Shown: positions 1 through 10,475 of the stretch, in pieces
How the letters are laid out: each line of letters starts with the position of its first letter
How positions within the stretch are numbered: the first letter of the stretch is position 1
DNA from: a virus
IMG/VR virus record: IMGVR_UViG_3300013006_000091
Coordinates: 1 to 31,590 of that record
Direction: 5' to 3' (one strand)
DNA length: 31,590 nucleotides
Program-made: the position numbers and the translations under genes
The notes under the pieces: generated by a model
The model's database searches: none
What the model was told of the DNA's origin: nothing
Seen by the model: only the letters and a program-made list of their open reading frames with translations

Positions 1-2
1 GT

Positions 3-68
3 GGAGTAGATACTCGCGGTTCACATAGAATACCACCAATAGATGAACGACTACTAGTTAAGGAGTAG
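3..68 (+). CDS. 3' end of an unidentified upstream gene (partial)
   Basis: An open frame enters from the left edge and ends with TAG at 66-68, giving 21 residues that finish IPPIDERLLVKE. Its stop overlaps the AAGGAG ribosome site of the next gene, the same tight packing seen through the rest of the block, so it is probably the tail of a real gene. Too little remains to name a family. Confidence 0.45.
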   Translation, partial: GVDTRGSHRIPPIDERLLVKE

Positions 69-70
69 TA

Positions 71-172
71 ATGTCATACGAACCACCACTTGAAGATGAC
101 ATAGCACTAGACAAAGATGAAGTAGAAGAAGAAGATACGGGAGAACCAGATAGGATGTGGGGAGATGAATGA
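71..172 (+). CDS. 34-codon acidic microprotein
   Basis: The ATG at 71 follows AAGGAG with a spacing of about 6 bases and encodes 33 residues rich in Asp and Glu, with a run DEVEEED in the middle and the ending RMWGDE. There are no Cys residues, signal peptide or membrane segment. Its stop lies inside the start of the next small gene, so the two are probably translationally coupled. Function is unknown. The ribosome site and the overlapping chain of genes support it as real, though its size makes it easy to miss. Confidence 0.55.
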   Translation: MSYEPPLEDDIALDKDEVEEEDTGEPDRMWGDE

Positions 173-260
173 CATTACATTCCTCCCTCTCACACCATTA
201 CAGTCCTGGGTCTTCCTCATTACAGTTTTCTATATCCTCTACAGATGGGTTACTAAATGA
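165..260 (+). CDS. 31-aa single-span membrane microprotein
   Basis: The ATG at 165 overlaps the end of the acidic microprotein, and the TGA at 258-260 overlaps the ATG at 257 of the lytic transglycosylase. The peptide has one hydrophobic segment at about residues 13-27 (WVFLITVFYILY) followed by the basic end RWVTK, so it should span the membrane once with a cytoplasmic basic tail. Its position directly before a cell-wall-degrading enzyme suggests a holin-like or spanin-like accessory role, but that is inference. A competing frame starting at 169 runs through the next gene and looks like noise. Confidence 0.55.
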   Translation: MNDITFLPLTPLQSWVFLITVFYILYRWVTK

Positions 261-670
261 AAAAAGTATTCGCACTACTTACAACATGGTATGTAGCATT
301 CTTATCGCTACTACCATGGCACATGCCAATAACAAATGCACACACAGAACCCAAGCCTACAGAGATGAGCGAGTTTCATTGGACTCCCCGTGCTCTGAAA
401 CTATATGCAAAACAGTTTATGCGTATGGCCTATCCCGAGTGGAATATGTCTGAGCATCGTGCACTCATGAAACTATGGGGAAAGGAATCAGCATGGAATC
501 CAGCAGCAGATAACCCAAACAGTTCTGCATTTGGTATTCCACAACTATTAAACCTTGACCCAGAAACGCCAGCCCCGCTTCAGATTGAGCGGGGGCTGGC
601 CTATATCCAGCACCGTTATGACAAACCATCAGTCGCTTGGTCACATTGGCGAAGCAATGGCTGGTACTAG
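257..670 (+). CDS. Lytic transglycosylase-like protein with N-terminal signal or anchor
   Basis: This 137-residue protein probably cleaves the glycan strands of peptidoglycan. Residues 1-28 begin MKK and then form a hydrophobic stretch, a signal peptide or membrane anchor. The rest matches the goose-lysozyme/SLT pattern: WGKESAWNP with the likely catalytic Glu77, then SSAFGIPQL at 89-97, and a late GLAYIQHRY motif at 113-121, all hallmarks of actinobacterial and phage transglycosylase-like domains. It starts inside the stop of a membrane microprotein. It sits in the plus-strand replication block, far from the late lysis genes at 9565-10475, so it might serve in entry or early wall remodelling instead of final lysis. 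A GC-rich inverted repeat lies inside its 3' part (568-600). Confidence 0.8.
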   Translation: MKKVFALLTTWYVAFLSLLPWHMPITNAHTEPKPTEMSEFHWTPRALKLYAKQFMRMAYPEWNMSEHRALMKLWGKESAWNPAADNPNSSAFGIPQLLNLDPETPAPLQIERGLAYIQHRYDKPSVAWSHWRSNGWY

Positions 671-680
671 AAAGGAAATC

Positions 681-1097
681 ATGGCAAGAGGAATAACAGT
701 TAAGGTTGCAACGCAAAAAGTAATTGCTGCGTTGGAAACCAAATTAACATCAGTCAAAAATGAGTACGCAAATCAAGAAGAATATGAAACAAAGTTCCAA
801 GAAGAATTTGCTGCATGGCAAAAGTCAATAACAGACTATGCCATTAAACATATTGATAAAGCAGTTAACTTTAGAACAAACATTCGCCAGTGGCAAAATA
901 CAGTAAACATTGATTACGATGTTCCATATAGTGATAGTGATTTACTTGCCATGCCTGAGCGTACGTTTGAACCTATTCGTGAATATCAATACAAAGAAAT
1001 TGTAGATGATATTACAAACGCTTTATCAATATTACGCATGACAGATGAAACAACAGTTAACGCTTCAACCATGAAGCAAATAGCGAAGTACCTATAA
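681..1097 (+). CDS. Hypothetical phage protein, 138 aa
   Basis: I chose the ATG at 681 because AAAGGAA lies 6-10 bases upstream and because a longer frame from 555 would run through the transglycosylase gene. The 138-residue product is charged and mostly helical by appearance (a run VIAALETKLTSVKNEYANQEEYETKF), with no Cys motif or membrane segment. I do not recognise a family. It is the first of three closely spaced genes (681-1791) that look co-transcribed. Confidence 0.75.
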   Translation: MARGITVKVATQKVIAALETKLTSVKNEYANQEEYETKFQEEFAAWQKSITDYAIKHIDKAVNFRTNIRQWQNTVNIDYDVPYSDSDLLAMPERTFEPIREYQYKEIVDDITNALSILRMTDETTVNASTMKQIAKYL

Positions 1098-1111
1098 CTA
1101 AGGATAAACAA

Positions 1112-1294
1112 ATGACAGCAACAGTTGGAGTAATACAACTAACAGAAGCAAAAGAGTTAGCCAGAAAACTTTATGATGAGGAGTTCGGTCCTCATTATTT
1201 ACTTGGCTATCTATGGGCAACCTTAACCCAAAAGCAACAACAAGATGTGTTGGAATCCCTCCAACGCTATGCAAAAGAAAAGGAAAGTAAATGA
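1112..1294 (+). CDS. Hypothetical 60-aa phage protein
   Basis: The ATG at 1112 follows AAGGA at a good distance. The 60-residue product appears helical and ends with the charged run RYAKEKESK. Its TGA overlaps the next ATG (ATGA at 1291), pointing to translational coupling with the DUF4192-like gene. The function is not recognisable. Similar short helical proteins with an EEFGPHYLLGYLWATL-type core seem plausible in actinophages, but I cannot name a family. Confidence 0.7.
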   Translation: MTATVGVIQLTEAKELARKLYDEEFGPHYLLGYLWATLTQKQQQDVLESLQRYAKEKESK

Positions 1295-1791
1295 CAGTAA
1301 CACTAGAAGAAATAGAAAACTACTACACTATTCTCTTAGATGAGAATGGAAAAGAAGAACAACTACTAACACAACGTAAGCGTTTAACTGACGCTATTTA
1401 TGCACAGGTTGATTCAGGTTCAGCACCAGATGATGACCATATTGCAGAGATAGCAGCAGCACTACAGAAAGACATTCAGTTACGTGACTTTGTATTAGGT
1501 CTACCATCTGAGCGTGAGGTTGTATCAGTCAATAAGTATTTAACATATCTTTATGAAACAGTACCAACCAAGTTTATTGCACCTATTGCAAGTGTGTTGG
1601 CTGCAAATCTATATGCGTTAGAGGAAGTAGATTCTGCTAAAGAAATGCTTCACAATGCAATAGTACATAACCCTAGTTATTCACTAGCAAATCTACTTAA
1701 CCGTGTCTTTACTTCAGGCTGGCCTTCAGGTGCGTTTGTTGCTATGACCCACGAACTACACCCAAAGGTTAAAGAAGGAATGGGTATCTAA
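1291..1791 (+). CDS. DUF4192 family protein
   Basis: This 166-residue protein resembles DUF4192, a family of unknown function largely found in actinobacteria and their phages. The features I use are the helical body with LRDFVLGLP, the AANLYALEEVDSAKEML segment, and the C-terminal signature NPSYSLANLLNRVF followed by HELHPKV near the end. The chromosomal family members I know of are longer, so the phage form may be compact. The ATG overlaps the preceding stop codon. Function is unknown. The family is one of the arguments for an actinobacterial host. Confidence 0.65.
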   Translation: MTVTLEEIENYYTILLDENGKEEQLLTQRKRLTDAIYAQVDSGSAPDDDHIAEIAAALQKDIQLRDFVLGLPSEREVVSVNKYLTYLYETVPTKFIAPIASVLAANLYALEEVDSAKEMLHNAIVHNPSYSLANLLNRVFTSGWPSGAFVAMTHELHPKVKEGMGI

Positions 1792-1793
1792 TC

Positions 1794-2270
1794 ATGGGAT
1801 TGGATATGTATCTCTATGCCCGTAAAGGCATAGCATCTATTGACTGGCAGCCAAAGAAAAAACTTAACGCTGACTACACAATACTAACCGCCCTTATGGG
1901 AGCAACAGATTGGGCTTATGACCCAGAAGAACTAGCCTTTGCTCAAGTATCTATTCAAGTTGGATACTGGCGTAAGGTTAATGCTATCCATAACTGGTTC
2001 ATTCAAGAACTAGCAGGTGGAGAAGATAACTGTCAGCAAATCTATGTGCCTCGTAGTTCTTTGGTTGACCTAAAGATTCTATGTGAACAGGTATTGGCAG
2101 ACCACAGTAAAGCAGATACACTACTGCCAACAGGCTCTGGATTCTTCTTCGGAAGCACAGAGTATGACGAATGGTATTTTCACGGTATTGAAAGAACCGT
2201 GAAGATAATAAGTAAACTCATTGAAGATGTACCCGAAGGATGGGCCTTCGAGTATCAGGCTTCATGGTAA
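1794..2270 (+). CDS. MGLDMYLY-type conserved phage protein
   Basis: This 158-residue protein begins MGLDMYLYARKG, a start shared by a family of phage and bacterial proteins of unknown function. Other recognisable blocks are GYWRKVNAIHNWF in the middle and SGFFFGSTEYDEWYF near the C-terminus. The several Trp, Tyr and Asp residues suggest a compact ligand- or nucleic-acid-binding fold, but no activity can be assigned. It starts two bases after the stop of the DUF4192-like gene, and the following gene has its own AAAGGGA ribosome site. Confidence 0.75.
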   Translation: MGLDMYLYARKGIASIDWQPKKKLNADYTILTALMGATDWAYDPEELAFAQVSIQVGYWRKVNAIHNWFIQELAGGEDNCQQIYVPRSSLVDLKILCEQVLADHSKADTLLPTGSGFFFGSTEYDEWYFHGIERTVKIISKLIEDVPEGWAFEYQASW

Positions 2271-2282
2271 AGAAAGGGACAT

Positions 2283-3236
2283 ATGACTACAGCAGATGTA
2301 GTAGAAAAGAAAAACCGTTCAGCCTGGATTAAAGCAGGCGTAGCGGTAAAAGCAACCAGCGCAGCACAGGTAGCACAACAAGCAGGACTTAACTGGACTG
2401 TTGGATTATCTGAGATGCACACCTCCGACTTCTTGCATGTACCAAAGAAGCAAGCAGTCGTAAAAACACATCAAGGAAAAGAGTCAGTCATTGGTGTAGT
2501 GGGCAGCAAGTACAAAGTCTTTCAAAACTCTGAAGTCTTTGGCTCACTAGATGGATTGATTGATTCAGGCGAGGCTCGCTATGCAGCAGCAGGTGAGTAT
2601 GATGACGGAGCAAAAGTATGGATGCTCATGTCATTACCAAAAGAAATGGAAATCAAGGGCGACCCGCATGCTGCCTTCTTACTGGCCAAGACCAGTCATG
2701 ATGGTTCATCATCAGTAGTATTACGCCCTATCATTGAGCGATTGTTTTGTGCTAATCAAATCAATCGTATATTTAGAGCCAAGAATAAAGCACATACATA
2801 TACACTGCGTCATACACAAAACGCAGTGCTATCAGTATCTGATATGCGAAACATTCTTGACCTAACCTACTCAAACATTGATATGTATAGCGACCTGGCT
2901 AATCATCTCATTAACCGTGAAGCAGATATAGCACATGCAACAGCCTATTTCAAAAAGGTGTGGGCATTGCCAACCAAGATAGAGAACGCACCGCTGCACC
3001 TGTTATCCAAGGGTGAGAAAAACGCTAAGTCTCGTGCTCTCAATGCACGACAAAAGGCGTTTGCTATCTACTCAGATAGCCCAACGCAAGAGAACATTCG
3101 CAACACAGAGTTTGGTTTGTGGCAAGCAGTTGTAGAATATGCTGACCATTACTCTCAAAAAGATGCTAGTATTGCTACCCTAGCAGGACGCAATGATGGT
3201 ATTAAACTTCGAGCACTAGAACTACTAACAATCTAA
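2283..3236 (+). CDS. DUF932 phage/plasmid-like protein
   Basis: This 317-residue protein fits the DUF932 family, which occurs on phages and plasmids and has no settled biochemical role. The N-terminal half carries the family-like elements GLNWTVGLSEMH, KYKVFQNSEVF and KVWMLMSLPKEM. The centre has the conserved block LRPIIERLFCANQIN at about residues 146-160, followed by a helical C-terminal domain. The start at ATG 2283 follows AAAGGGA. Such genes often lie near replication and recombination genes, as here. Confidence 0.8.
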   Translation: MTTADVVEKKNRSAWIKAGVAVKATSAAQVAQQAGLNWTVGLSEMHTSDFLHVPKKQAVVKTHQGKESVIGVVGSKYKVFQNSEVFGSLDGLIDSGEARYAAAGEYDDGAKVWMLMSLPKEMEIKGDPHAAFLLAKTSHDGSSSVVLRPIIERLFCANQINRIFRAKNKAHTYTLRHTQNAVLSVSDMRNILDLTYSNIDMYSDLANHLINREADIAHATAYFKKVWALPTKIENAPLHLLSKGEKNAKSRALNARQKAFAIYSDSPTQENIRNTEFGLWQAVVEYADHYSQKDASIATLAGRNDGIKLRALELLTI

Positions 3237-3244
3237 GGAGAATC

Positions 3245-3679
3245 GTGTACCTAAATCCAATCACAGTAGACGGAACAACCTACAACTTCACAGAAGAATC
3301 ACTCAAAGAACTAATCAAGAGTGAAATCTCAGCAAAAAGAAAGCACGAAGCAGTATCAACTGAAGCACAAGAAGGCTATAGAAAAATTGCAACTTTGCGT
3401 AGCAAAGTGTATGATTTCTTTTCGGAAGCATTTGATGATGGTTCAGATGAAGCAACAGTTAGTCGTGACGACGTTAACGAATTGCTTGAAGCAATCGGTT
3501 CAGATGTACTTACTACAACCTGGTCAGCAACTGTAGAGATTACAGTTACTGTTACTGGTATCAAGGCTACCTCCCCTGAGGAAGTTGAAGATATTATTAC
3601 GGACAACATCGAAGTCAGCGGCTACGACTTAGAGTTGCACGACCCAGATGTACGAGTACAAGACATCGAGCGAGAGTAA
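3245..3679 (+). CDS. Hypothetical acidic phage protein, 144 aa (GTG start)
   Basis: The start is GTG at 3245, eight bases after a strong AAGGAG that overlaps the stop of the DUF932 gene. Residues 15-60 look like a charged helix (EESLKELIKSEISAKRKHEAV), followed by a very acidic middle (FDDGSDEATVSRDDVNELLE) and a beta-rich segment with alternating Thr and Val (SATVEITVTVTGI). The end is acidic. The layout suggests an oligomerisation helix plus a small beta domain. No family is recognised. It is the last gene before the structured gap at 3680-3794. Confidence 0.75.
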   Translation: MYLNPITVDGTTYNFTEESLKELIKSEISAKRKHEAVSTEAQEGYRKIATLRSKVYDFFSEAFDDGSDEATVSRDDVNELLEAIGSDVLTTTWSATVEITVTVTGIKATSPEEVEDIITDNIEVSGYDLELHDPDVRVQDIERE

Positions 3680-3699
3680 CCAACATCAGCAGCGCTATC

Positions 3700-3777
3700 T
3701 GACACATAGGAGTTTATTCATTTCTACTATGTGTTAGACTTGGGGATGGGTGGTCCCGCCATCTGCGAACACGGGAC
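3700..3777 (+). other. Structured intergenic region with two inverted repeats
   Basis: Between the genes ending at 3679 and starting at 3795 lie two inverted repeats. The first pairs TGACACATAG (3700-3709) with CTATGTGTTA (3727-3736), a 10-bp stem with one G-T pair and a 17-base loop. The second pairs GTCCCG (3753-3758) with CGGGAC (3772-3777). GTGTT (3731-3735) can also pair with AACAC (3769-3773), which would compete with both stems. There is no U-tract, so it does not look like an ordinary terminator. A transcript processing site, a small RNA or a translation control element of the nuclease gene are options. Confidence 0.45.
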
Positions 3778-3794
3778 ACTAAACAAGGAGACAA

Positions 3795-4577
3795 ATGCCA
3801 ACAGAAATAGCAAGAGATAGATACGGTAGACCAATGGTTGTACCACCCAAAGGTGGTAAAGCAATTGCTTATACTCGTGCTACTACAATCGCTAACAGTC
3901 TTGATGATGCGTCAGCATTAACGGCATGGAAAATGAGAATGGCAGCAATAGGTTTAACAAGCAGACCAGACTTACTATTAGCCATAGGCGTAGCAGCGGA
4001 AGACAATAAGTTAGTTAATGCATACATCGAAGAAGCAATGGATGCAGCAGGTGCAAGTAAGGCAGCAACAATAGGCACAGCCATACACGCACTAACAGAA
4101 AAGTTAGATTTAGGATTAGAATTAGGTCCAGTACCAGAACAATGGATGCCAGACATTAAAGCCTACGAACAGGCAACCAGTATATTAACTAACTTATTCA
4201 TTGAACAGTTTACAGTTCTTGATAAGTTTAAGATTGCTGGCACACCAGATAGAGTTGTTGAGTACAAGGGTGAGCGATTTATTGCTGACCTCAAGACAGG
4301 TCGCATTGACCATCCAAATAATATATCAATGCAGTTAGCAATCTATGCCAACGGCATGCCGTATATGGCGGACACGGCAAGCCGTGGCACATGGGGCGAC
4401 ATCAACAAAGAGAAAGCAATTATAATTCATGCCCCAGCAGGGACAGGAACATGCAAACTAGTATGGGTTGACATCAAAGAAGGATGGAAAGGTGTACAGT
4501 TTGCAATGAAAGTAAGACAGTGGCGTGACCAGAAGGGTCTAGCCACTCCATTTGAGCAAGGAGAAGATAGTGCCTAG
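3795..4577 (+). CDS. PD-(D/E)XK nuclease, Cas4/RecB-exonuclease-like
   Basis: This 260-residue protein has the ordered active-site motifs of Cas4/RecB-type PD-(D/E)XK exonucleases: GTAIHALTE with His98, GTPDRVVEY with Asp152, IADLKTG with Asp165 and Lys167, and the MQLAIYA helix with Gln180. It should be a metal-dependent DNA exonuclease used in recombination or replication. I do not see the four Cys residues that hold an iron-sulphur cluster in true Cas4, so the RecB-like label is safer. The start follows AAGGAG at 3786-3791. Its end overlaps the start region of the following Cys/His protein gene, and together with the ATPase they form a replication-recombination set. Confidence 0.8.
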   Translation: MPTEIARDRYGRPMVVPPKGGKAIAYTRATTIANSLDDASALTAWKMRMAAIGLTSRPDLLLAIGVAAEDNKLVNAYIEEAMDAAGASKAATIGTAIHALTEKLDLGLELGPVPEQWMPDIKAYEQATSILTNLFIEQFTVLDKFKIAGTPDRVVEYKGERFIADLKTGRIDHPNNISMQLAIYANGMPYMADTASRGTWGDINKEKAIIIHAPAGTGTCKLVWVDIKEGWKGVQFAMKVRQWRDQKGLATPFEQGEDSA

Positions 4578-5016
4578 CACCGAAGCACCAATCAGTATCA
4601 CAGTAAAGACACCAGCAGGTAGTCTTGTAACAGTCCGCGCAGAAAGCGGAGACGAACTAGATAACATCATTGCACTATCAGTGCATGCAATTGCATCAGC
4701 AGCACAAGAAATGGAGTCCGCAGTACGCGGTACTCCAGCCCCATCAGCACAGTCAGTAGCAGCAGCGTTCAATGGCAACATCATTGAAACAGGAGCACCA
4801 GTTCCTACCCAAGAATATGCACCAACACCAATCATTGGTGGGCGCAATTGTCCACACGGCAAGATGACTGCAATTCAGGGCATGGGTAAAGATGGTAAGC
4901 CATACAAAGGTTACTTTTGCCCAGCACCAAAGGGTGCATTTGATAAATGTAAAAATCAATATGTCACAGTTCAGTCACCTGATTGGAACACATTTGTTCC
5001 AGAACAGATTAAGTGA
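4570..5016 (+). CDS. Actinophage-type Cys/His (zinc-ribbon-like) protein, possibly DNA-binding
   Basis: I chose the GTG at 4570, six bases after AAGGAG (4558-4563), over the TTG at 4552. The 148-residue product has a first half (about 1-60) that looks like a small mixed fold and a Pro/Ala-rich linker. The C-terminal module has Cys94-Pro-His96-Gly, a GYFCPAPKG block with Cys117, and Cys127, which could bind one metal ion. I recall this CPHG...FCPxPKG arrangement next to Cas4-like nucleases in actinophages. A single-strand-binding or nuclease-partner role is a guess from context. It overlaps both neighbours by a few bases. Confidence 0.65.
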   Translation: MPSTEAPISITVKTPAGSLVTVRAESGDELDNIIALSVHAIASAAQEMESAVRGTPAPSAQSVAAAFNGNIIETGAPVPTQEYAPTPIIGGRNCPHGKMTAIQGMGKDGKPYKGYFCPAPKGAFDKCKNQYVTVQSPDWNTFVPEQIK

Positions 5017-5825
5017 AAACCCTTAAACGCTCTATAAATAAAGCAGAGGTGGGTGGCGAACCGTTGCCACCTGCCTTTGCTGCATTTGAAAGGGCTGGTA
5101 TTATTCTGCGTCGTGCAGAAGTAACTGTAATCGCTGGCACTCCAGGTGCAGGTAAGTCATCAGTTGCATTGTCTATTGCTGCAAAAACAAAACATCCGAC
5201 ACTTTACTTTTCAGCAGATACCAATGCACACACAATGGCTATGCGCTTGATTGCCATGACTGGCAAGATGACACAAACAGCAGCAGAAAGTTTGCTAAAG
5301 AATAACCCAAACAAGTCACATGAAATACTGCAACTCAACAATCATTTGTTCTGGTCATTTGAATCTAGCCCTACACTCAAGGACTTAGATGATGAAGTCT
5401 CAGCCTTTGAAACTGTATGGGGTAAGAGTCCTACCTTGATTGTTGTAGACAACCTAATGGATGTAGCAATGGATGGGTACGATGAGTTCGGTGCAATGCG
5501 TGCCGTTATGAAAGAACTTAAGTACCTAGCCAGAGATACTAACGCAGCAGTGTTGGTACTACACCATACTAAAGAAGGCTTTGATGGGTATCCTTGTCAG
5601 CCGCGTAGCGCAGTGCAAGGCATGGTCAATCAGATACCAGCAATGGTACTTACAATTGGACAGATGAAACAGGGAGATGAAACATATCTATGTGTAGCCC
5701 CAGTTAAAAACAGATACGGACGGGCTGACCAAACAGGCAGCAACTATGTTACCCTGTCATTTAATCCTGAGTCTATGTACTTAGAAGATGTAGCAGTTAG
5801 ATACCAACAAGAGGAGGTAGTGTAA
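5013..5825 (+). CDS. RecA/DnaB-fold ATPase, replicative helicase-like
   Basis: This 270-residue P-loop ATPase has Walker A GTPGAGKSS at 42-50, Walker B TLIVVD at 141-146, the sensor-like LVLHHT at 181-186, and a late VKNRYGRADQTG motif at 231-242 that matches the arginine-containing C-terminal loop of DnaB-type helicases. The length corresponds to the motor domain alone, with no N-terminal primase-interaction domain, so it may be a hexameric helicase or a loader-like ATPase. The GTG start at 5013 overlaps the TGA of the previous gene. Its stop shares a base with the next ATG. The primase halves lie 600 bases downstream. Confidence 0.8.
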   Translation: MKTLKRSINKAEVGGEPLPPAFAAFERAGIILRRAEVTVIAGTPGAGKSSVALSIAAKTKHPTLYFSADTNAHTMAMRLIAMTGKMTQTAAESLLKNNPNKSHEILQLNNHLFWSFESSPTLKDLDDEVSAFETVWGKSPTLIVVDNLMDVAMDGYDEFGAMRAVMKELKYLARDTNAAVLVLHHTKEGFDGYPCQPRSAVQGMVNQIPAMVLTIGQMKQGDETYLCVAPVKNRYGRADQTGSNYVTLSFNPESMYLEDVAVRYQQEEVV

Positions 5826-5944
5826 TGCCTAGTTATACAATTACTGTAGAAGTAGACCAACAATGGTTTGATATTCTTGGTCAAATTTCCCGTCATCAAG
5901 ACGGGTTTATATGGATTAAAGTAGAGGAGTTAACTAATGCCTAA
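5825..5944 (+). CDS. 39-aa microprotein
   Basis: The ATG at 5825 sits at a TAATG junction with the ATPase stop, with GAGGAGG just upstream inside the ATPase gene. The 39 residues include a beta-like TITVEVDQQW, then DILGQISRHQDGFIWIKVEEL. There is no Cys motif or membrane span. Its end overlaps the next start by eight bases. The ribosome site and coupling on both sides support it as a real gene, but the function is unknown. Confidence 0.6.
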   Translation: MPSYTITVEVDQQWFDILGQISRHQDGFIWIKVEELTNA

Positions 5945-6080
5945 ATACAGAGTGACATACTCGCAATACAAAGTAAAAGTTATTCGTGCATCATCATTAA
6001 AGATAGCAGAAGAACGTGCAAAGAAAGCAGAAACAGGTAGATGGGAACTAACGGAAGTTAGGGACGAGCCACAAGAATGA
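5937..6080 (+). CDS. 47-aa basic microprotein
   Basis: The ATG at 5937 lies inside the end of the preceding small gene and follows GAGGAG (5925-5930). The 47-residue product has a beta-like start (PKYRVTYSQYKVKVIRAS) and a helix (KIAEERAKKAETGRW). Its TGA overlaps the ATG of the resolvase-like gene. It could be a small DNA-binding or accessory factor for the neighbouring replication enzymes, but there is no motif to prove this. Confidence 0.6.
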   Translation: MPKYRVTYSQYKVKVIRASSLKIAEERAKKAETGRWELTEVRDEPQE

Positions 6081-6421
6081 GTACAGCAGCCAAGCGTAAA
6101 GGCAGCAAAGCAGAAGCAGATGCTGTCAAGTGGTTAAAGGTCAATGGCTTTCCATATGCAGACCGCAGAATCGCAGGAGCACAACTAGACAAAGGTGATA
6201 TCAGCGGTGTGAATGGAGTAACCATCGAGGTTAAAGACCACGTCCGCATGGACTTGAGCGCTTGGGTCAAAGAGTTAGAAGTAGAAATCAAGAATGATAA
6301 CGCGTGGACTGGGACAGTTCTACACAAGCGGAAAGGTAAGTCAGATGTTGGCGAGTGGTATTGCACAATGCCAGCCAGCATTTGGCTTGCCCTAATCAGA
6401 AAGGCAATAGGTGAAACATAG
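6077..6421 (+). CDS. Holliday-junction-resolvase-like PD-(D/E)XK nuclease
   Basis: This 114-residue protein has the compact layout of archaeal or phage Hjc-type and VRR-like nucleases. A basic N-terminal helix carries KGSKAEADAVKWL with Glu13, followed by a KGDISG strand with Asp41 and TIEVKDH with Glu51 and Lys53. These are the metal-binding and catalytic positions. It probably resolves branched DNA made during replication and recombination. It overlaps the 47-aa gene by ATGA and the CHC2 gene by 11 bases, so translation is likely coupled with primase synthesis. Confidence 0.72.
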   Translation: MSTAAKRKGSKAEADAVKWLKVNGFPYADRRIAGAQLDKGDISGVNGVTIEVKDHVRMDLSAWVKELEVEIKNDNAWTGTVLHKRKGKSDVGEWYCTMPASIWLALIRKAIGET

Positions 6422-6785
6422 TATCGCGGACTACTTAAGATATGTAGGCGCAGCCGTGCCTCCTGAGGGACACGGCTGGCGCAAAATTAAGTGTCCATTT
6501 CATGCAGATAGTCATGCATCAGCAGGTATTAACTTTGAAGAAAACAGATTCAAATGCCACGGATGTGGTGTTGGTGGAGATGTATACGATTTAATTATGC
6601 ATAGAGAAGGAGGTAACTACAGTGAGGCTGTCAAGTTCGCACAGACAATTTCTCTTACAGGCGACGCACCAGTACGCAAAACAGATTCATCTAGCAACAG
6701 AGTATCTAGCAACACGCAATCTCTCGGTCGACGAGGCGCAACGCTTTCATCTTGGAGTGGTAAAGGACGCTCTTCCAGGTCATGA
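6411..6785 (+). CDS. Primase N-terminal part: CHC2-type zinc-binding domain
   Basis: The GTG at 6411 opens a 124-residue frame. Residues 1-80 match the DnaG-type zinc-binding domain: KIKCPFHADSHAS with Cys28 and His31, FKCHGCGVGGD with Cys49 and Cys52, then the usual helix IMHREGGNYSEAVKFA. After about residue 85 the product becomes Ser/Arg-rich and loses family likeness, while the overlapping +1 frame takes up primase-like sequence. The real primase therefore continues in the other frame, through separate translation, a +1 frameshift, or a sequence error. Alone, this domain would recognise template DNA but could not make primers. Confidence 0.75.
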   Translation: MKHSIADYLRYVGAAVPPEGHGWRKIKCPFHADSHASAGINFEENRFKCHGCGVGGDVYDLIMHREGGNYSEAVKFAQTISLTGDAPVRKTDSSSNRVSSNTQSLGRRGATLSSWSGKGRSSRS

Positions 6786-7248
6786 ACAGTACACAGGCAG
6801 ACTAGCAATACCCTACATAACACCATCAGGTGTAGTTGATATTAGATTCAGAGCGATAGGTAATGCTGACCCAAAGTATATGGGTATGCCAGGTGCTAAG
6901 ACCAGCATGTTCAATGCACAAGTAGTTCTTACTGCATCAGATTATATCTGTGTGACAGAGGGAGAAATAGATTGCATTACGGTTAGTGTCAAGACTAACC
7001 ATCCAGCCGTAGGTATTCCAGGGGCCAACAATTGGAAACCGTTTTACTCTAAGATATTAGATGACTTTGATACAGTAATTGTGTTAGCAGATGGTGATAC
7101 AGCGGGTATGGATTTTGGTAAGAAAGTTAGCCGAGAGTTAGGTAATGTTAATATAGTGCAGATGCCAGAAGGGCATGATGTAAACAGCATAGTAATGCTA
7201 GAGGGGGCAGAGTTTATTAATGAGCGAATCCGAAAATGCATTTCTTAA
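6622..7248 (+). CDS. Primase catalytic part: Toprim domain
   Basis: This 208-residue protein carries the Toprim catalytic signatures of DnaG-type primases: CVTEGEID at 110-117 and VLADGDTAG at 154-162, preceded by EYLATRNLSVDEAQRFHLGVV and RLAIPYITPSG, which normally follow the zinc domain in a single chain. No helicase domain follows. The GTG at 6622 has a near-perfect AAGGAGGT six bases upstream, so independent translation is possible. It overlaps the CHC2 frame by 164 bases in the +1 frame. The region around CGC AAA ACA at about 6677-6685 could also allow a +1 slip on Lys. Confidence 0.78.
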   Translation: MRLSSSHRQFLLQATHQYAKQIHLATEYLATRNLSVDEAQRFHLGVVKDALPGHEQYTGRLAIPYITPSGVVDIRFRAIGNADPKYMGMPGAKTSMFNAQVVLTASDYICVTEGEIDCITVSVKTNHPAVGIPGANNWKPFYSKILDDFDTVIVLADGDTAGMDFGKKVSRELGNVNIVQMPEGHDVNSIVMLEGAEFINERIRKCIS

Positions 7249-7531
7249 TAATGGTGAGGAAGTATGGGAGTTCATCAAAGAACATCCTAGATACATAGGC
7301 ATACCAATCTCCAACAGCAAGGGATTAGATATCCTTAATGCGTTAAGAGATGTATGGATGGCAAATAAAACAGACCCACAAAAAGCCAACAGCATGTTAA
7401 CTATGCTGGCAGCCGTGTTAGTATCGTCAGAGGCAGGCCACGGAGATGAGATTGTAGAAGAAGTATTAGTACAAGAAGCAATGATAGGCTTTGAAGAACA
7501 GGCTAGGGAGATACTTGATGAAAGACCTTAA
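7220..7531 (+). CDS. Hypothetical 103-aa phage protein
   Basis: The ATG at 7220 overlaps the Toprim gene by 29 bases. The product is acidic and helical, with HPRYIGIPISNSKGLDILNAL near the start and a very acidic segment (GDEIVEEVLVQEAMIGFEEQARE) near the end. There are no Cys residues or membrane segment. I do not recognise a family. Its stop overlaps the next start region, continuing the coupled chain. Confidence 0.68.
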   Translation: MSESENAFLNNGEEVWEFIKEHPRYIGIPISNSKGLDILNALRDVWMANKTDPQKANSMLTMLAAVLVSSEAGHGDEIVEEVLVQEAMIGFEEQAREILDERP

Positions 7532-7808
7532 TAATTTTGAAGATATATTAAATGAACTACGTATTATTATGGTGCGTAAGCATCAAGACTACGGCCCGTT
7601 TAACATAGCCAATGCTCCAGGTGGTGCAATGAATGGACTACTTGTGCGTATGCATGACAAAATGGCACGATTAGAAAACCTTTACTACAAAAGTAGCGAC
7701 ACGCCCAACTATGAAAGTATTGAAGATACCTTTATTGACCTAGCAAACTATGCAATAATCGGACTATTGGTACAAAGGCGACAATGGGAAGGCGTAGCAG
7801 AGGGATAA
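7518..7808 (+). CDS. DUF1599-like (nucleotide modification associated) protein
   Basis: I chose the ATG at 7518, seven bases after AGGGAG, over an in-frame start at 7491 that lies deep in the previous gene. The 96-residue all-helical product carries KHQDYG, LVRMHDKMARLENL and ESIEDTFIDLANYAIIGL. These are the acidic and basic helix motifs of the DUF1599 family, which resembles MazG-type NTP pyrophosphatases. It could act on nucleotide pools or modified nucleotides during phage replication. No base-modification enzymes are visible in the window. The family call is good and the biochemical role is uncertain. Confidence 0.68.
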   Translation: MKDLNNFEDILNELRIIMVRKHQDYGPFNIANAPGGAMNGLLVRMHDKMARLENLYYKSSDTPNYESIEDTFIDLANYAIIGLLVQRRQWEGVAEG

Positions 7809-7809
7809 C

Positions 7810-8457
7810 GTGGACTACTTAGAAGAGTATGAGCAGATGGTTGTGGCTATTGCTGCCGAATACCAGCGCAAATACCCTATGACTGACCAGCAAGACATAC
7901 AGCAGGTGCTGTGGATATGGTTCGTTAGTCACCCAGTTAAGTATAAAGAGTGGTCAGCACTGCCAAGAAAAGACAAGGACAAACTCATAGCCAAGTCTCT
8001 TCGCAATAAAGCAATTACTTATTGTGAACGCGAAAAGGCACGGACGGTTGGCTATGAGTTGCTTGACCTCTACTACTACGATGCATCTGTTATTGAAGCG
8101 TTCTTACCATCAATCATTGCTGAGTCGTATGAGATTCCAACTAAAATTAAAGACCTTAACTTTAAGTTTAATAAGTCAGAGGCTGCCAATGATGGGAACA
8201 ATTGGCTAGTACTTAGGTCTGATATTGCAGCAGCATATTATAAACTTTCAGAAGCAAAACAGTTTATTCTTAAAGTTAGGTTCACAGTGGACAATGTCGA
8301 TTGGAGTGAGACAGCCAAAGAGTTAGACACAACACCAGATGGTGCACGAATGAAGGTCCAAAGAACTATTGCATCTCTAATTAGAAATTTGGGCGGATGG
8401 AAGCCACAGCCTGATGATGATTTAGTAGAGGCAGATGATGAACAACGAGGAGAATGA
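7810..8457 (+). CDS. Sigma-factor-like protein with C-terminal HTH
   Basis: The GTG at 7810 begins a 215-residue protein. Residues 27-39 (DQQDIQQVLWIWF) look like the end of a sigma region 2 helix, and residues 55-80 are basic and helical. Residues 164-190 (DWSETAKELDTTPDGARMKVQRTIASL) look like a region 4 helix-turn-helix. The tail is acidic. This arrangement matches sigma-70-like proteins seen in actinophages, which could redirect host RNA polymerase to phage promoters. A simple HTH regulator is the alternative. It lies next to WhiB and two zinc-ribbon genes, a cluster suggesting transcriptional control. Confidence 0.6.
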   Translation: MDYLEEYEQMVVAIAAEYQRKYPMTDQQDIQQVLWIWFVSHPVKYKEWSALPRKDKDKLIAKSLRNKAITYCEREKARTVGYELLDLYYYDASVIEAFLPSIIAESYEIPTKIKDLNFKFNKSEAANDGNNWLVLRSDIAAAYYKLSEAKQFILKVRFTVDNVDWSETAKELDTTPDGARMKVQRTIASLIRNLGGWKPQPDDDLVEADDEQRGE

Positions 8458-8683
8458 TGTCGTTAAAGAAATCAGAGAGTTACTACATCCAACGGATTAC
8501 TCACACGCTATGGACTTGCGAGGAAAATCTATTGGAGATGTTTGCATATGTGGAGGGGATGTATTTCATGCGCTTGTTGCATTTGAACAAGGTGAAATAT
8601 GCTTTTATTTCCTTGATGGAGAGTGCGTTAACTGTGGGTCTATGGTCACACTCCCTCACCCAACAGGTCAGGAGTTTGACTAA
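8435..8683 (+). CDS. Zinc-ribbon protein, 82 aa
   Basis: The ATG at 8435 overlaps the end of the sigma-like gene. The 82-residue product has two Cys pairs, DVCICGGD and GECVNCGS, separated by a beta segment (FHALVAFEQGEICFYFLD), the layout of a single zinc ribbon. I recall similar short ribbons with a YFLD-type core in actinophages. A second frame from 8454 with a nearby GAGGAG reads through this region but lacks the Cys pattern and is rejected. A nucleic-acid or RNA-polymerase contact is plausible. Confidence 0.7.
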   Translation: MMNNEENDVVKEIRELLHPTDYSHAMDLRGKSIGDVCICGGDVFHALVAFEQGEICFYFLDGECVNCGSMVTLPHPTGQEFD

Positions 8684-8844
8684 TGCCACTGTTTGATTTT
8701 AAATGTAATTGTTGTTCAGATGTAATTGAAGTAACCGAAAATATACCGCCAGCCTGCTCAACTTGTGGTGAAACTATGCAGCGTATATGGTCAGTACCAG
8801 CGGTCAAGTTTAATGGCTCAGGCTTCTACTCAACAGGAGGATAA
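8683..8844 (+). CDS. FmdB-like zinc-ribbon microprotein, 53 aa
   Basis: The ATG at 8683 shares a base with the preceding TAA. The 53-residue product starts MPLFDFKCNCC and has a second pair STCGE, then ends with SVPAVKFNGSGFYSTGG. This is the pattern of the FmdB family of putative regulatory zinc ribbons, including the PxVxFxGSGFY ending. Its molecular role is unsettled. AGGAGG at its 3' end serves the adjacent WhiB gene, so the two are likely translated together. Confidence 0.7.
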   Translation: MPLFDFKCNCCSDVIEVTENIPPACSTCGETMQRIWSVPAVKFNGSGFYSTGG

Positions 8845-9111
8845 ATGGAATACCCAGACTGGCAAGGTGAACCTAACTGCAGAAGTGTAGATTCAGAGGA
8901 GTTCTTTGTACCAGATGGTAGTTCTACATATAGAGATGTTAATATGCTTAAGAAAATCTGTAACAACTGTGAAGTAAAACAACAGTGTTTAGATTACTCA
9001 CTTAAGAATGGTGTATTTGGATACTGGGGTGGAACAACAGAGTTCCAACGCAGGGTACTAAGAAAGAGATTAAAAATTACGGTCAAGCCACTATACTTAG
9101 GATACCCATGA
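8845..9111 (+). CDS. WhiB-family iron-sulphur transcription regulator
   Basis: This 88-residue protein has all the WhiB (Wbl) hallmarks. Four Cys residues for a 4Fe-4S cluster are at 12, 39, 42 and 48 (the middle pair as CNNC), and EEFFVPDG precedes them. The turn GYWGGTTEFQRR at 59-70 corresponds to the G(V/I)WGG motif and is followed by a basic tail (RKRLKITVK) for DNA contact. Wbl proteins occur in actinobacteria and their phages and bind the principal sigma factor. Here it may alter host or late phage transcription. ATG 8845 follows AGGAGG directly after the FmdB-like gene. Its stop overlaps the next ATG. Confidence 0.88.
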   Translation: MEYPDWQGEPNCRSVDSEEFFVPDGSSTYRDVNMLKKICNNCEVKQQCLDYSLKNGVFGYWGGTTEFQRRVLRKRLKITVKPLYLGYP

Positions 9112-9482
9112 GCAAACTATCAGACTTTGATTTAGACTTAGCCGTTGGCCAAGCAGGAGAAGGATTAGTAGAACAACTCCTAACAGGTGGTAGTACAGTA
9201 GAAGTTAAGACAGATTTACAATGGAAAGATACTGGCAATCTATACATAGAAACAGTTTGCTGGTCACATAACAATGAGAATTGGTATCTATCAGGATTGT
9301 CCAGCACTAAGGCTGCATACTGGGCATTTGTGTTGGAGGGGGCAACCTTGATAGTGCCAACGGAGGTATTAAAACAAGCAGTAACGGTTCGGGGAAGAGC
9401 CATTACTTGCAACATACCTCCGAACCCTAGTAAGGGCTACCTTATTAAGGTTGAAGACATACTTTCTGCTCTGCAGAAATAG
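9108..9482 (+). CDS. PD-(D/E)XK-like endonuclease
   Basis: This 124-residue protein begins with an acidic DFDLDLAVGQAGEG segment, followed by VEVKTDLQWKDTGNLYIET. The Glu in the GEG segment, then EVK, a following Asp and the distal Glu, fits a compact PD-(D/E)XK nuclease core like those of phage restriction-like endonucleases. The remainder is beta-rich and contains a second Trp cluster. The ATG overlaps the WhiB stop. The gene ends immediately before the terminator at 9489-9523, so it closes the plus-strand transcription unit. The catalytic residue assignment is tentative. Confidence 0.6.
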   Translation: MSKLSDFDLDLAVGQAGEGLVEQLLTGGSTVEVKTDLQWKDTGNLYIETVCWSHNNENWYLSGLSSTKAAYWAFVLEGATLIVPTEVLKQAVTVRGRAITCNIPPNPSKGYLIKVEDILSALQK

Positions 9483-9488
9483 AAAAAA

Positions 9489-9523
9489 CCCCCCGCGCTG
9501 GTAGGGGAAACCAGAACGGGGGG
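9489..9523. terminator. Bidirectional intrinsic terminator between convergent blocks
   Basis: CCCCCC (9489-9494) pairs with GGGGGG (9518-9523), and an inner stem pairs CTGGT (9498-9502) with ACCAG (9510-9514). On the plus strand only TTT follows; on the minus strand the hairpin is followed by six T residues (complement of 9483-9488). It should stop minus-strand late transcripts best and also help end the plus-strand unit that finishes at 9482. Confidence 0.85.
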
Positions 9524-9537
9524 TTTACTGTCTCTAT

Positions 9538-9553
9538 GGGGCTGCTAGGCCCC
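9538..9553. other. Second short hairpin behind the terminator
   Basis: GGGG (9538-9541) pairs with CCCC (9550-9553), with an adjoining C-G pair (9542, 9549), and is followed by TTAAAT. It sits between the main terminator and the end of the last late gene. It may be a backup terminator for plus-strand transcripts or protect the 3' end of the late mRNA. Confidence 0.4.
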
Positions 9554-9564
9554 TTAAATAGGTA

Positions 9565-9750
9565 CTACTTTGAACCGCGACCAAACTCTGGGGCAGAGTT
9601 ATCTAGCCACTTGAGTAGTGGACCAGCAAAGCCAGCCACTCCAGCCATTGCTAGTGTTTTAAGGTCCGTCTCACCAGCAAGGTAAAGTGCAATAGCAGAT
9701 GCTGCTGCTGCACGAAACCAAGTAAGTGATAGTTGTTTGAATTGCTCCAT
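9565..9750 (-). CDS. Putative holin-like small membrane protein
   Basis: This 61-residue protein has two moderately hydrophobic Ala/Leu-rich stretches. One is at about residues 12-26 (FRAAAASAIALYLAG) and the other at 31-47 (TLAMAGVAGFAGPLLKW). The C-terminus is charged (EFGRGSK). The start follows TAGGAGG with good spacing. It is the last gene of the late unit, directly after the M15-type endolysin, so a holin that opens the membrane is likely from context. The family is not named with certainty. Confidence 0.6.
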   Translation of the reverse strand: MEQFKQLSLTWFRAAAASAIALYLAGETDLKTLAMAGVAGFAGPLLKWLDNSAPEFGRGSK

Positions 9751-9768
9751 TTGTATCCTCCTAGGGGA

Positions 9769-10272
9769 TTAGGATTTTGTACTGTGCAATTTGCAGCAAG
9801 TACAAACTTGTTTTGTATATGCTTTCTTAGCAGGTACTGGTGTTACTTTAGCAATAACTTGACTAATAATTTTAGGTTGGTTCATCCACCAAAACCATGG
9901 AGAAGTATCGGTACCCATAGTGGACTCAATAGAAATATGTAGATGCTTATTATGAGGATTACTCCCAGTGTACCGTCTGGTTCCTTGCTTAGCCTTTTCT
10001 TTAGACCATATCTTGCCTTGAAAGATAAGATACTTAACTCGCTTATCTTCTTTAAGGTGTTCAAAAATTTCAACACAATCAATTCCATTCCTTGGGTCGT
10101 GCGTTAGGTCAACTGCAAGTCCAGTATTGTGGTCGCTAGTTGGACTCTGTTTCAGATGAGCGTTCGACGGCAGAAGTCCATCGCTGGCTTTCATACGCAA
10201 TGGCGAAATCGCTGTGGCTTGTCGAAGGACAGCAATAGCGGCAGGTGTGGCTCTCTTGACTACAGACTTCAT
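9769..10272 (-). CDS. M15-like peptidase, probable endolysin
   Basis: This 167-residue protein carries the metallopeptidase signature of VanY/DacB-like and M15-type wall peptidases. SDHNTGLAVDL has His48 and Asp55, and HNKHLHIS has His110 and His112. It should cut peptide stems or cross-links in the peptidoglycan. The C-terminus has an odd Cys-rich end (VCTCCKLH at 156-163), a possible metal site outside the usual fold. The ATG overlaps the stop of the 68-aa membrane gene (ATGA). With its membrane-protein neighbours it makes a lysis cassette, distinct from the lytic transglycosylase at 257-670. Confidence 0.75.
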   Translation of the reverse strand: MKSVVKRATPAAIAVLRQATAISPLRMKASDGLLPSNAHLKQSPTSDHNTGLAVDLTHDPRNGIDCVEIFEHLKEDKRVKYLIFQGKIWSKEKAKQGTRRYTGSNPHNKHLHISIESTMGTDTSPWFWWMNQPKIISQVIAKVTPVPAKKAYTKQVCTCCKLHSTKS

Positions 10273-10475
10273 TCATTTCTCCCCTTGTGTAACATCATTT
10301 GATATAAGATTTCTACTTTTTCTTCTAGTCTTGTAACAGAATCTTTGAGGCTTGAGCCAGAATTTGGTTTAAGTTCATTGAGATAATGTTTAACTAGCCA
10401 GCGCACCGCTGCGACAAAGCCACCTATAATTGTCATTACAGCAACAGCAACGGTTGCATAGTCTTGTGCTTGCAT
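10269..10475 (-). CDS. Small membrane protein with coiled-coil tail, holin-like
   Basis: This 68-residue protein has one hydrophobic segment at about residues 8-25 (TVAVAVMTIIGGFVAAVRW), then a basic stretch and a charged coiled coil (KDSVTRLEEKVEILYQMM). This topology resembles small holin or anti-holin partners and DUF2746-like actinophage proteins. It starts at a TAATG junction with the 673-aa tail gene and overlaps the endolysin gene by four bases, so it is made together with the lysis proteins. Confidence 0.6.
   Translation of the reverse strand: MQAQDYATVAVAVMTIIGGFVAAVRWLVKHYLNELKPNSGSSLKDSVTRLEEKVEILYQMMLHKGRNE

Follow-up and report, generated by a model that had tools for sequence, protein, structure and literature searches.

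A conserved element with a covarying pseudoknot precedes replication and recombination genes in actinobacteriophage-type genomes

The window analyzed here is a stretch of 31,590 nucleotides (positions 1 to 31,590 of the IMG/VR virus record IMGVR_UViG_3300013006_000091). Within its plus-strand gene block, a 115-nt gap (3680-3794) separates ORF 3245-3679 from ORF 3795-4577. The upstream gene (3245-3679, + strand) has no assigned function; in other phages, its homologues are preceded by the element described below. The downstream gene (3795-4577, + strand) is by family match a PD-(D/E)XK exonuclease (PDDEXK_1, phrog_466). The block also encodes a DUF932 protein, a DnaB-like helicase, primase parts, a RusA-like resolvase, a sigma-like protein, and a WhiB protein. 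Homologues of the exonuclease are found in 594 phage records, all at less than 60% identity, and most belong to phages of Mycobacterium, Streptomyces, and other actinobacteria. Thus, we treat the window as an actinobacteriophage-type genome. A preliminary description called the gap the only sizeable one in the plus-strand block, which is roughly correct. An ORF list with a cutoff of at least 60 codons also leaves 5826-6076 and 8697-8844, which by eye seem to contain short reading frames, and 9483-9732, at the end of the block.

We find that this gap holds a highly conserved element. The viral collection contains 359 stretches that encode a relative of the exonuclease, and in all of the best 80 of these 359, the element lies upstream of the exonuclease gene. 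Four of these relatives (L003, L008, L034, and L064) have an extra stretch between the two. For the comparison of identity to the window, 57 distinct sequences (the window among them) had enough flank. The core of the element (3744-3777) has a mean identity of 99.2% and is the most conserved stretch of the compared region. Mean identity falls to 87.0% in the upstream coding stretch and to 83.4% at the start of the exonuclease coding sequence, where third positions average 70.7%. Between these lies the hairpin P1, part of window positions 3695-3743. Conservation is higher in its 3′ arm and linker (98.3%) than around its 5′ arm (87.3%), suggesting a possible additional role of the 3′ arm.

As defined from its relatives, the whole element spans 85 nt (3693-3777, + strand). 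It begins with a CGC (3693-3695) that is invariant in the window family, the 5′ strand of helix P0, next to the 5′ side of P1. The proposed partner of this CGC is GCG at 3765-3767, and their pairing would close a three-way junction. P1 (3698-3738) is a hairpin of 12 bp (3698-3709 with 3727-3738) with a 17-nt loop. Two crossing helices then form an H-type pseudoknot: S1 (3744-3764; 3744-3749 with 3759-3764) and S2 (3753-3777; GTCCCG at 3753-3758 with CGGGAC at 3772-3777). Loop L1, GUG (3750-3752), does not vary among the distinct cores (22 of 22), but GUG was demanded by the filter used to collect them. Loop L3, GCGAACA (3765-3771), includes the GCG able to pair with P0; its GCG and ACA are invariant in the 22 cores and were mostly demanded by the scan patterns. 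The core ends 17 nt before the exonuclease ATG, with a G-free linker (3778-3784) leading to the Shine-Dalgarno sequence AAGGAG (3785-3790) of that gene. The plain fold of 3680-3810, computed by a program without pseudoknots, is unremarkable (z = -1.41; 22 of 200 shuffles equally good). The preliminary description had noticed P1, which it gave as 10 bp at 3700-3736, as well as the GTCCCG/CGGGAC stem that we call S2 and that relatives support. It overlooked S1, hence the pseudoknot, and the CGC at 3693-3695. It also noted that there is no U-tract, and we see none after either stem.

Pattern scans gathered cores with differing sequences. A pairing filter, which biases the set toward paired sequences, left at least 103 distinct contexts and at least 23 distinct cores. 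Alignment A1 comprises 22 distinct cores; one core found later (L312) lies outside it. Across A1, 98.5% of 263 pseudoknot cells are paired. The covariation score is 0.447, compared with 0.144 ± 0.021 for shuffled alignments (reached in 0 of 500 shuffles) and at most 0.115 when the pairing is slid. Both sides change in 6 of the 12 pseudoknot pairs, namely four of six in S1 and two in S2. GAUGG/CCAUC in S1 is replaced by ACUGG/CCAGU, GCUGG/CCAGC, or GUAGG/CCUAC, while GUCCCG/CGGGAC in S2 is replaced by GCACCG/CGGUGC, GUACCG/CGGUAC, or GUGCCG/CGGCAC. Pairing in S2 is complete (100% of cells in the 22 cores), and the four unpaired cells of A1 are confined to the two outer pairs of S1. Since the patterns or the filter prescribed the GUG loop, most of L3, and the inner S2 pairs, their invariance is partly built in. 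One scan design left S2 free and another left most of S1 free. In two scans, the patterns placed no constraint on the variable parts of either helix, and every one of the stretches concerned (14/14) forms S1 and S2.

The pairing filter dropped as chance matches 4 of the 23 new loci of the scan with S2 free, and 17 of 32 in another pattern scan, which gave at least 120 matches and at least 32 new loci. From the 87 new loci of the first core scan it dropped a single one (L116, minus strand, near 481-510). The 3′ strand of S2 ends in T at this locus, giving a G-U pair; L116 is probably a true copy, lost because the filter fixed the last C.

The window family itself (alignment A2, 36 distinct sequences) gives the same picture. 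P0, P1, S1, and S2 are jointly 99.9% paired over 972 cells. In P1, 431 of 432 cells are paired, and three pairs show double changes. The S1/S2 pseudoknot and P1 are established features of the element. G-U combinations outnumber A-C combinations 44 to 1 among the 432 cells of P1, and the core helices show a ratio of 12 to 1; both favor an element that acts as RNA rather than as DNA. These compensatory changes, together with the 99.2% core identity, bear out the earlier claim that a structured and conserved noncoding element precedes the nuclease gene. Covariation among relatives had been named as the check on that claim; the compensatory changes are present, and the gap did not prove to be unconserved.

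To describe the element outside the window family, we use 24 dissimilar contexts separated by 6-mer sharing, a few of which share stem segments (L231, L237, and L241). Three of 103 contexts were excluded from the 24 for having less than 70 nt upstream. Loci L169-L207 were excluded from counts, and L281-L310 from the stem and CGC count. The stem preceding the core differs widely in sequence among these contexts. The best such stem is equaled by at most 4.5% of shuffles in 14 of the 24, and by 7% to 91% in the other 10. CGC adjoins the 5′ arm of P1 in 22 of 24 contexts, compared with 3.2 expected. One of the two contexts without a scored CGC has it by eye (L249), leaving L257 as the exception. 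CGC and GCG never vary in A2, so P0 rests on position, not on covariation. Taken together, the CGC/GCG pairing is strongly suggested to be part of the fold.

The preliminary description had also proposed a switch-like layout of competing stems, based on a third pairing between GTGTT (3731-3735) and AACAC (3768-3772). This complementarity is present but does not exceed chance. The window family gives no covariation for it, and just 1 of the 24 dissimilar contexts could form it, so we rejected it as an alternative fold; the two stems with which it was said to compete belong to one fold. The window does contain the 24-codon frame (3746-3820) suggested as a leader peptide, which extends into the next gene, but relatives do not keep it. 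The start position is ATG in 11 of 24 dissimilar contexts and otherwise CTG, GTG, TTG, CAG, TAG, or TGG. Frame length ranges from 0 to 349 codons, and some families have an extra loop base. The leader peptide was rejected on these grounds.

The element precedes homologues of five genes from one replication/recombination block. Among 101 contexts, the gene that follows is the exonuclease in 65, a homologue of 3245-3679 in 13, a homologue of 681-1097 in 12, a DUF932 gene in 3, and a homologue of 1291-1791 in 3, with none of these in the remaining 5. The distance from core to start codon is 17 to 31 nt in 77 of these contexts, but the contexts lack independence, as exonuclease leaders account for 48 of the 77. 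It is 32 to 60 nt in four and more than 60 nt in 15, and it is negative in five, where the start was picked inside or upstream of the core. In whole-record model searches, 21 of 22 phage contigs have one strong copy and the other (G010) has two; all other matches in these contigs are weak (E of 0.01 or worse). A second copy lies 2.5 to 3.0 kb upstream in seven loci on five contigs. Two loci stand apart. On a 97-kb contig (L312), a tRNA-Pro gene begins 3 nt after the copy, within a region (302-6236) containing 24 tRNA genes. At L233, the element is followed by a terminator-like hairpin (by eye) and by an ORF on the opposite strand (5362-5847, - strand) that appears HNH-like by eye. We also observed an exonuclease frame without the usual N-terminus behind the element at L141 (4061), and a 108-aa ORF with no match to window genes behind it at L094 (4777).

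Several loci carry a second likely structured motif, GTATGCATACTGC..GCAGCGATAGCGC, located 3′ or 5′ of the pseudoknot within an outer stem that varies (ATTGG/CCAAT, TTCCG/CGGAA, or CTTCGG/CCGAA). The loci are L003 (2841), L034 (2674), L231, L241, L029 (346), L035 (312), L137, L166 (3612), and L303. The GCATACTGC part of this second motif is absent from the window.

The strip between core and ribosome site has an unusual composition. We find no G in 424 nt from 39 distinct leaders (leaders with an AGGAG-type site and ATG, taking at most the last 12 nt before the site). The 329 other leaders of these loci contain 13.1% G, and the 194 of them with stops in all three frames contain 12.0%. In a broader set of 15 contexts, ~1% of the 202 nt are G. 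Because the leaders are related to one another, this nearly G-free strip is suggestive and not a formal test. Predicted openness of the Shine-Dalgarno sequence averages ~0.50 over 72 contexts and ranges from 0.01 to 0.75 across 16 contexts; thus, folding does not clearly bear out an “unstructured” strip. By eye, three loci (L114, L237, and L249) have hairpins with a CTCC-containing loop (e.g., TCTCCTTT) between the element and the exonuclease start, and this loop could meet the Shine-Dalgarno sequence.

Database searches link the element to no known family. Rfam 15 gave no match at gathering score in the window. A permissive scan of 3640-3820 (to E of 10) returned only mir-190 at chance level (E of 2.2; 15.2 of 48 bits), and five other loci (to E of 1) returned only a snoRNA model below threshold (E of 0.45). 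The T-box antiterminator consensus is AGGGUGGNACCGCG, which the core here resembles in reading GGGUGGNNCCGC; permissive Rfam scans gave no match to the T-box family, and no specifier stem is seen. The element may also bear some resemblance to HDV and twister, neither of which came up in the Rfam scans. Topic searches of the open-licence literature, several aimed at the comparison systems and made by topic instead of by motif sequence, found no description of the motif. Because Rfam returned only chance-level matches, we class it as a new structured RNA motif whose general kind is already known. STAXI (RF01728) is likewise a pseudoknot near genes for DNA-handling proteins, but it is repeated two, usually three, times and occurs in Enterobacteriales, as far as the account in PMC2864571 goes, whereas the element here has no Rfam match.

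We also searched cultured phages and a genome collection for the element. There was no blastn match to the gap among cultured phages, three cultured-phage records with an exonuclease homologue have no gap directly before that gene, and model searches of six whole phage records returned nothing better than weak matches (best E of 0.006). The 18-mer of the window-type core occurs in 39 stretches of the genome collection, none of which extends to a whole core in the flanks shown, in a scan blind to cores with another S1 or inner S2. A generic pattern matched 1 of 396 genomes from the phylum of L169 (Actinomycetota), where S2 is unpaired by eye. Model matches at E of 1e-5 or better occurred in 4 of 296 genomes from the order of the L169 genome, all within one oxidase-like coding sequence. 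These four (L332-L335; 27 to 33 bits) lie at codons for LGG(T/S)ASGEHGIG in a gene that is FAD-linked oxidase-like by eye, and S2 is not formed by eye. Their E-values (3e-9 to 3e-7 for one genome) are rough and, at face value, below what chance would produce. We take these matches, without proof, to be codon resemblance.

What might such an element do? We tentatively propose, at a probability of roughly 0.4, that it acts in cis as an mRNA leader, most likely as a pseudoknot operator bound by a factor, of the kind that precedes T4 gene 32. In the gene 32 operators of T4 and RB69, a pseudoknot of ~28 nt precedes a strip that is less structured and holds the ribosome site, and control is autogenous by the SSB protein (PMC535899). 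The parallels are a phage genome, a pseudoknot 5′ of the ribosome site and start codon, a strip behind the pseudoknot that includes the ribosome site, and a gene for replication or recombination (PMC535899). In the transcript, P0, hairpin P1, and hairpin S1 would meet in a three-way junction, and pairing of the S1 loop with the sequence directly downstream (S2) would give the pseudoknot. The nearly G-free strip would connect this pseudoknot to the Shine-Dalgarno sequence of the replication/recombination gene. A phage or host RNA-binding factor might then recognize the pseudoknot and, via the strip, control ribosome access to the next gene or protect its mRNA. Here, we infer action in cis, protein binding, and the direction of control.

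There are also differences from gene 32. The T4 strip contains UUAAA/UAAA repeats, whereas the strip here is A/C-rich, and a three-way junction is not mentioned in the passages of PMC535899 drawn on here. The gene 32 operator precedes an SSB gene, whereas our element precedes the exonuclease or another block gene and not a recognized SSB. No SSB or RNA-binding protein was recognized among 19 plus-strand ORFs of the window, several of unknown family, or in the one minus-strand ORF scanned. Since neither the gene nor a recognized SSB fits, we tentatively claim the working principle, a factor-bound pseudoknot leader, and not membership of the gene 32 group. Further points against an operator are that the downstream gene varies, that copies precede the tRNA-Pro gene of L312 and the terminator-like hairpin of L233, and that 15 of 101 contexts have their chosen start codon at a distance above 60 nt.

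A ligand-binding riboswitch is a possible but doubtful alternative; a small molecule would sit in a pocket made by the conserved loops and thereby hide or free the ribosome site. A compact pseudoknot with conserved unpaired GUG and GCG.ACA directly 5′ of the ribosome site would suit this explanation. Two of 16 contexts, L246 (p = 0.03) and L258 (p = 0.003), taken singly, also have upstream complementarity to the Shine-Dalgarno sequence beyond that of shuffles. However, consistent masking of that site by upstream sequence was not found over the 16 contexts (median p = 0.50; combined p = 0.19). The genes behind the element have no evident common metabolite theme, and the chance-level Rfam matches also count against a riboswitch.

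It is unlikely that the element is a processive antitermination RNA that lets RNA polymerase read through a long operon or tRNA array, as do put, the antitermination RNA of HK022 (PMC9378689), and the Bacillus EAR. The single strong copy in 21 of 22 contigs, at variable positions in one gene block, would fit such an RNA, as would the terminator-like hairpin right behind the element at L233 (by eye) and the copy among the tRNA genes of L312. EAR (the epsC motif, RF01735) is a reported antiterminator and, like our element, a pseudoknotted RNA in an operon leader, but one of exopolysaccharide genes in Bacillales, according to the account in PMC2864571, and our element has no Rfam match. Against antitermination, plus-strand sequence downstream of the element, within positions 1-10400 of the window, has only two short terminator-like sites (5889, 6 pairs; 6820, 5 pairs), and the G-free strip and the short distance to the start codon would call for no explanation under this reading.

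Protection of the mRNA 5′ end, with a fold that halts a 5′-3′ exonuclease such as RNase J and so preserves the downstream message, is rather improbable. Flaviviral xrRNAs share the topology of a three-way junction with an apical loop that pairs with downstream sequence, and one of them blocks bacterial RNase J1 (PMC5760640). An element that is not bound to one gene would also fit. But the likeness is one of topology: the xrRNAs described in PMC5760640 belong to the flavivirus 3′ UTR, and the junction here depends on P0, which has position and not covariation behind it. In a specific form that we consider quite improbable, the P0/P1/S1 junction and S2 would close round the 5′ strand and stop a host RNase J-type 5′-3′ RNase, protecting the replication-gene message. 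If true, this roadblock would be a DNA-phage counterpart of viral xrRNAs.

The preliminary description had also considered a small RNA. A free small RNA, produced either by cleavage from the operon or by termination at a site of its own, has the L233 hairpin and the tRNA neighborhood of L312 in its favor, but we hold it to be improbable to a similar degree, given that in 77 of 101 contexts a start codon follows the end of the element by 17 to 31 nt and that the window has no terminator-like site directly after it. A cis-acting leader fits the evidence better. An element at the DNA level, such as an origin, packaging, or recombination site, might explain one strong copy in 21 of 22 contigs and a position that shifts within the block, but is very improbable because G-U pairs far outnumber A-C, pointing to RNA.

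Here, we present a structured RNA motif of actinobacteriophage-type genomes, with clear covariation, a nearly fixed core, and different block genes behind it. A core so constrained beside drifting genes must contact something conserved. This partner, which could be the ribosome, the polymerase, a nuclease, a phage protein, or a ligand, would, once found, reveal a regulatory step of these phages.
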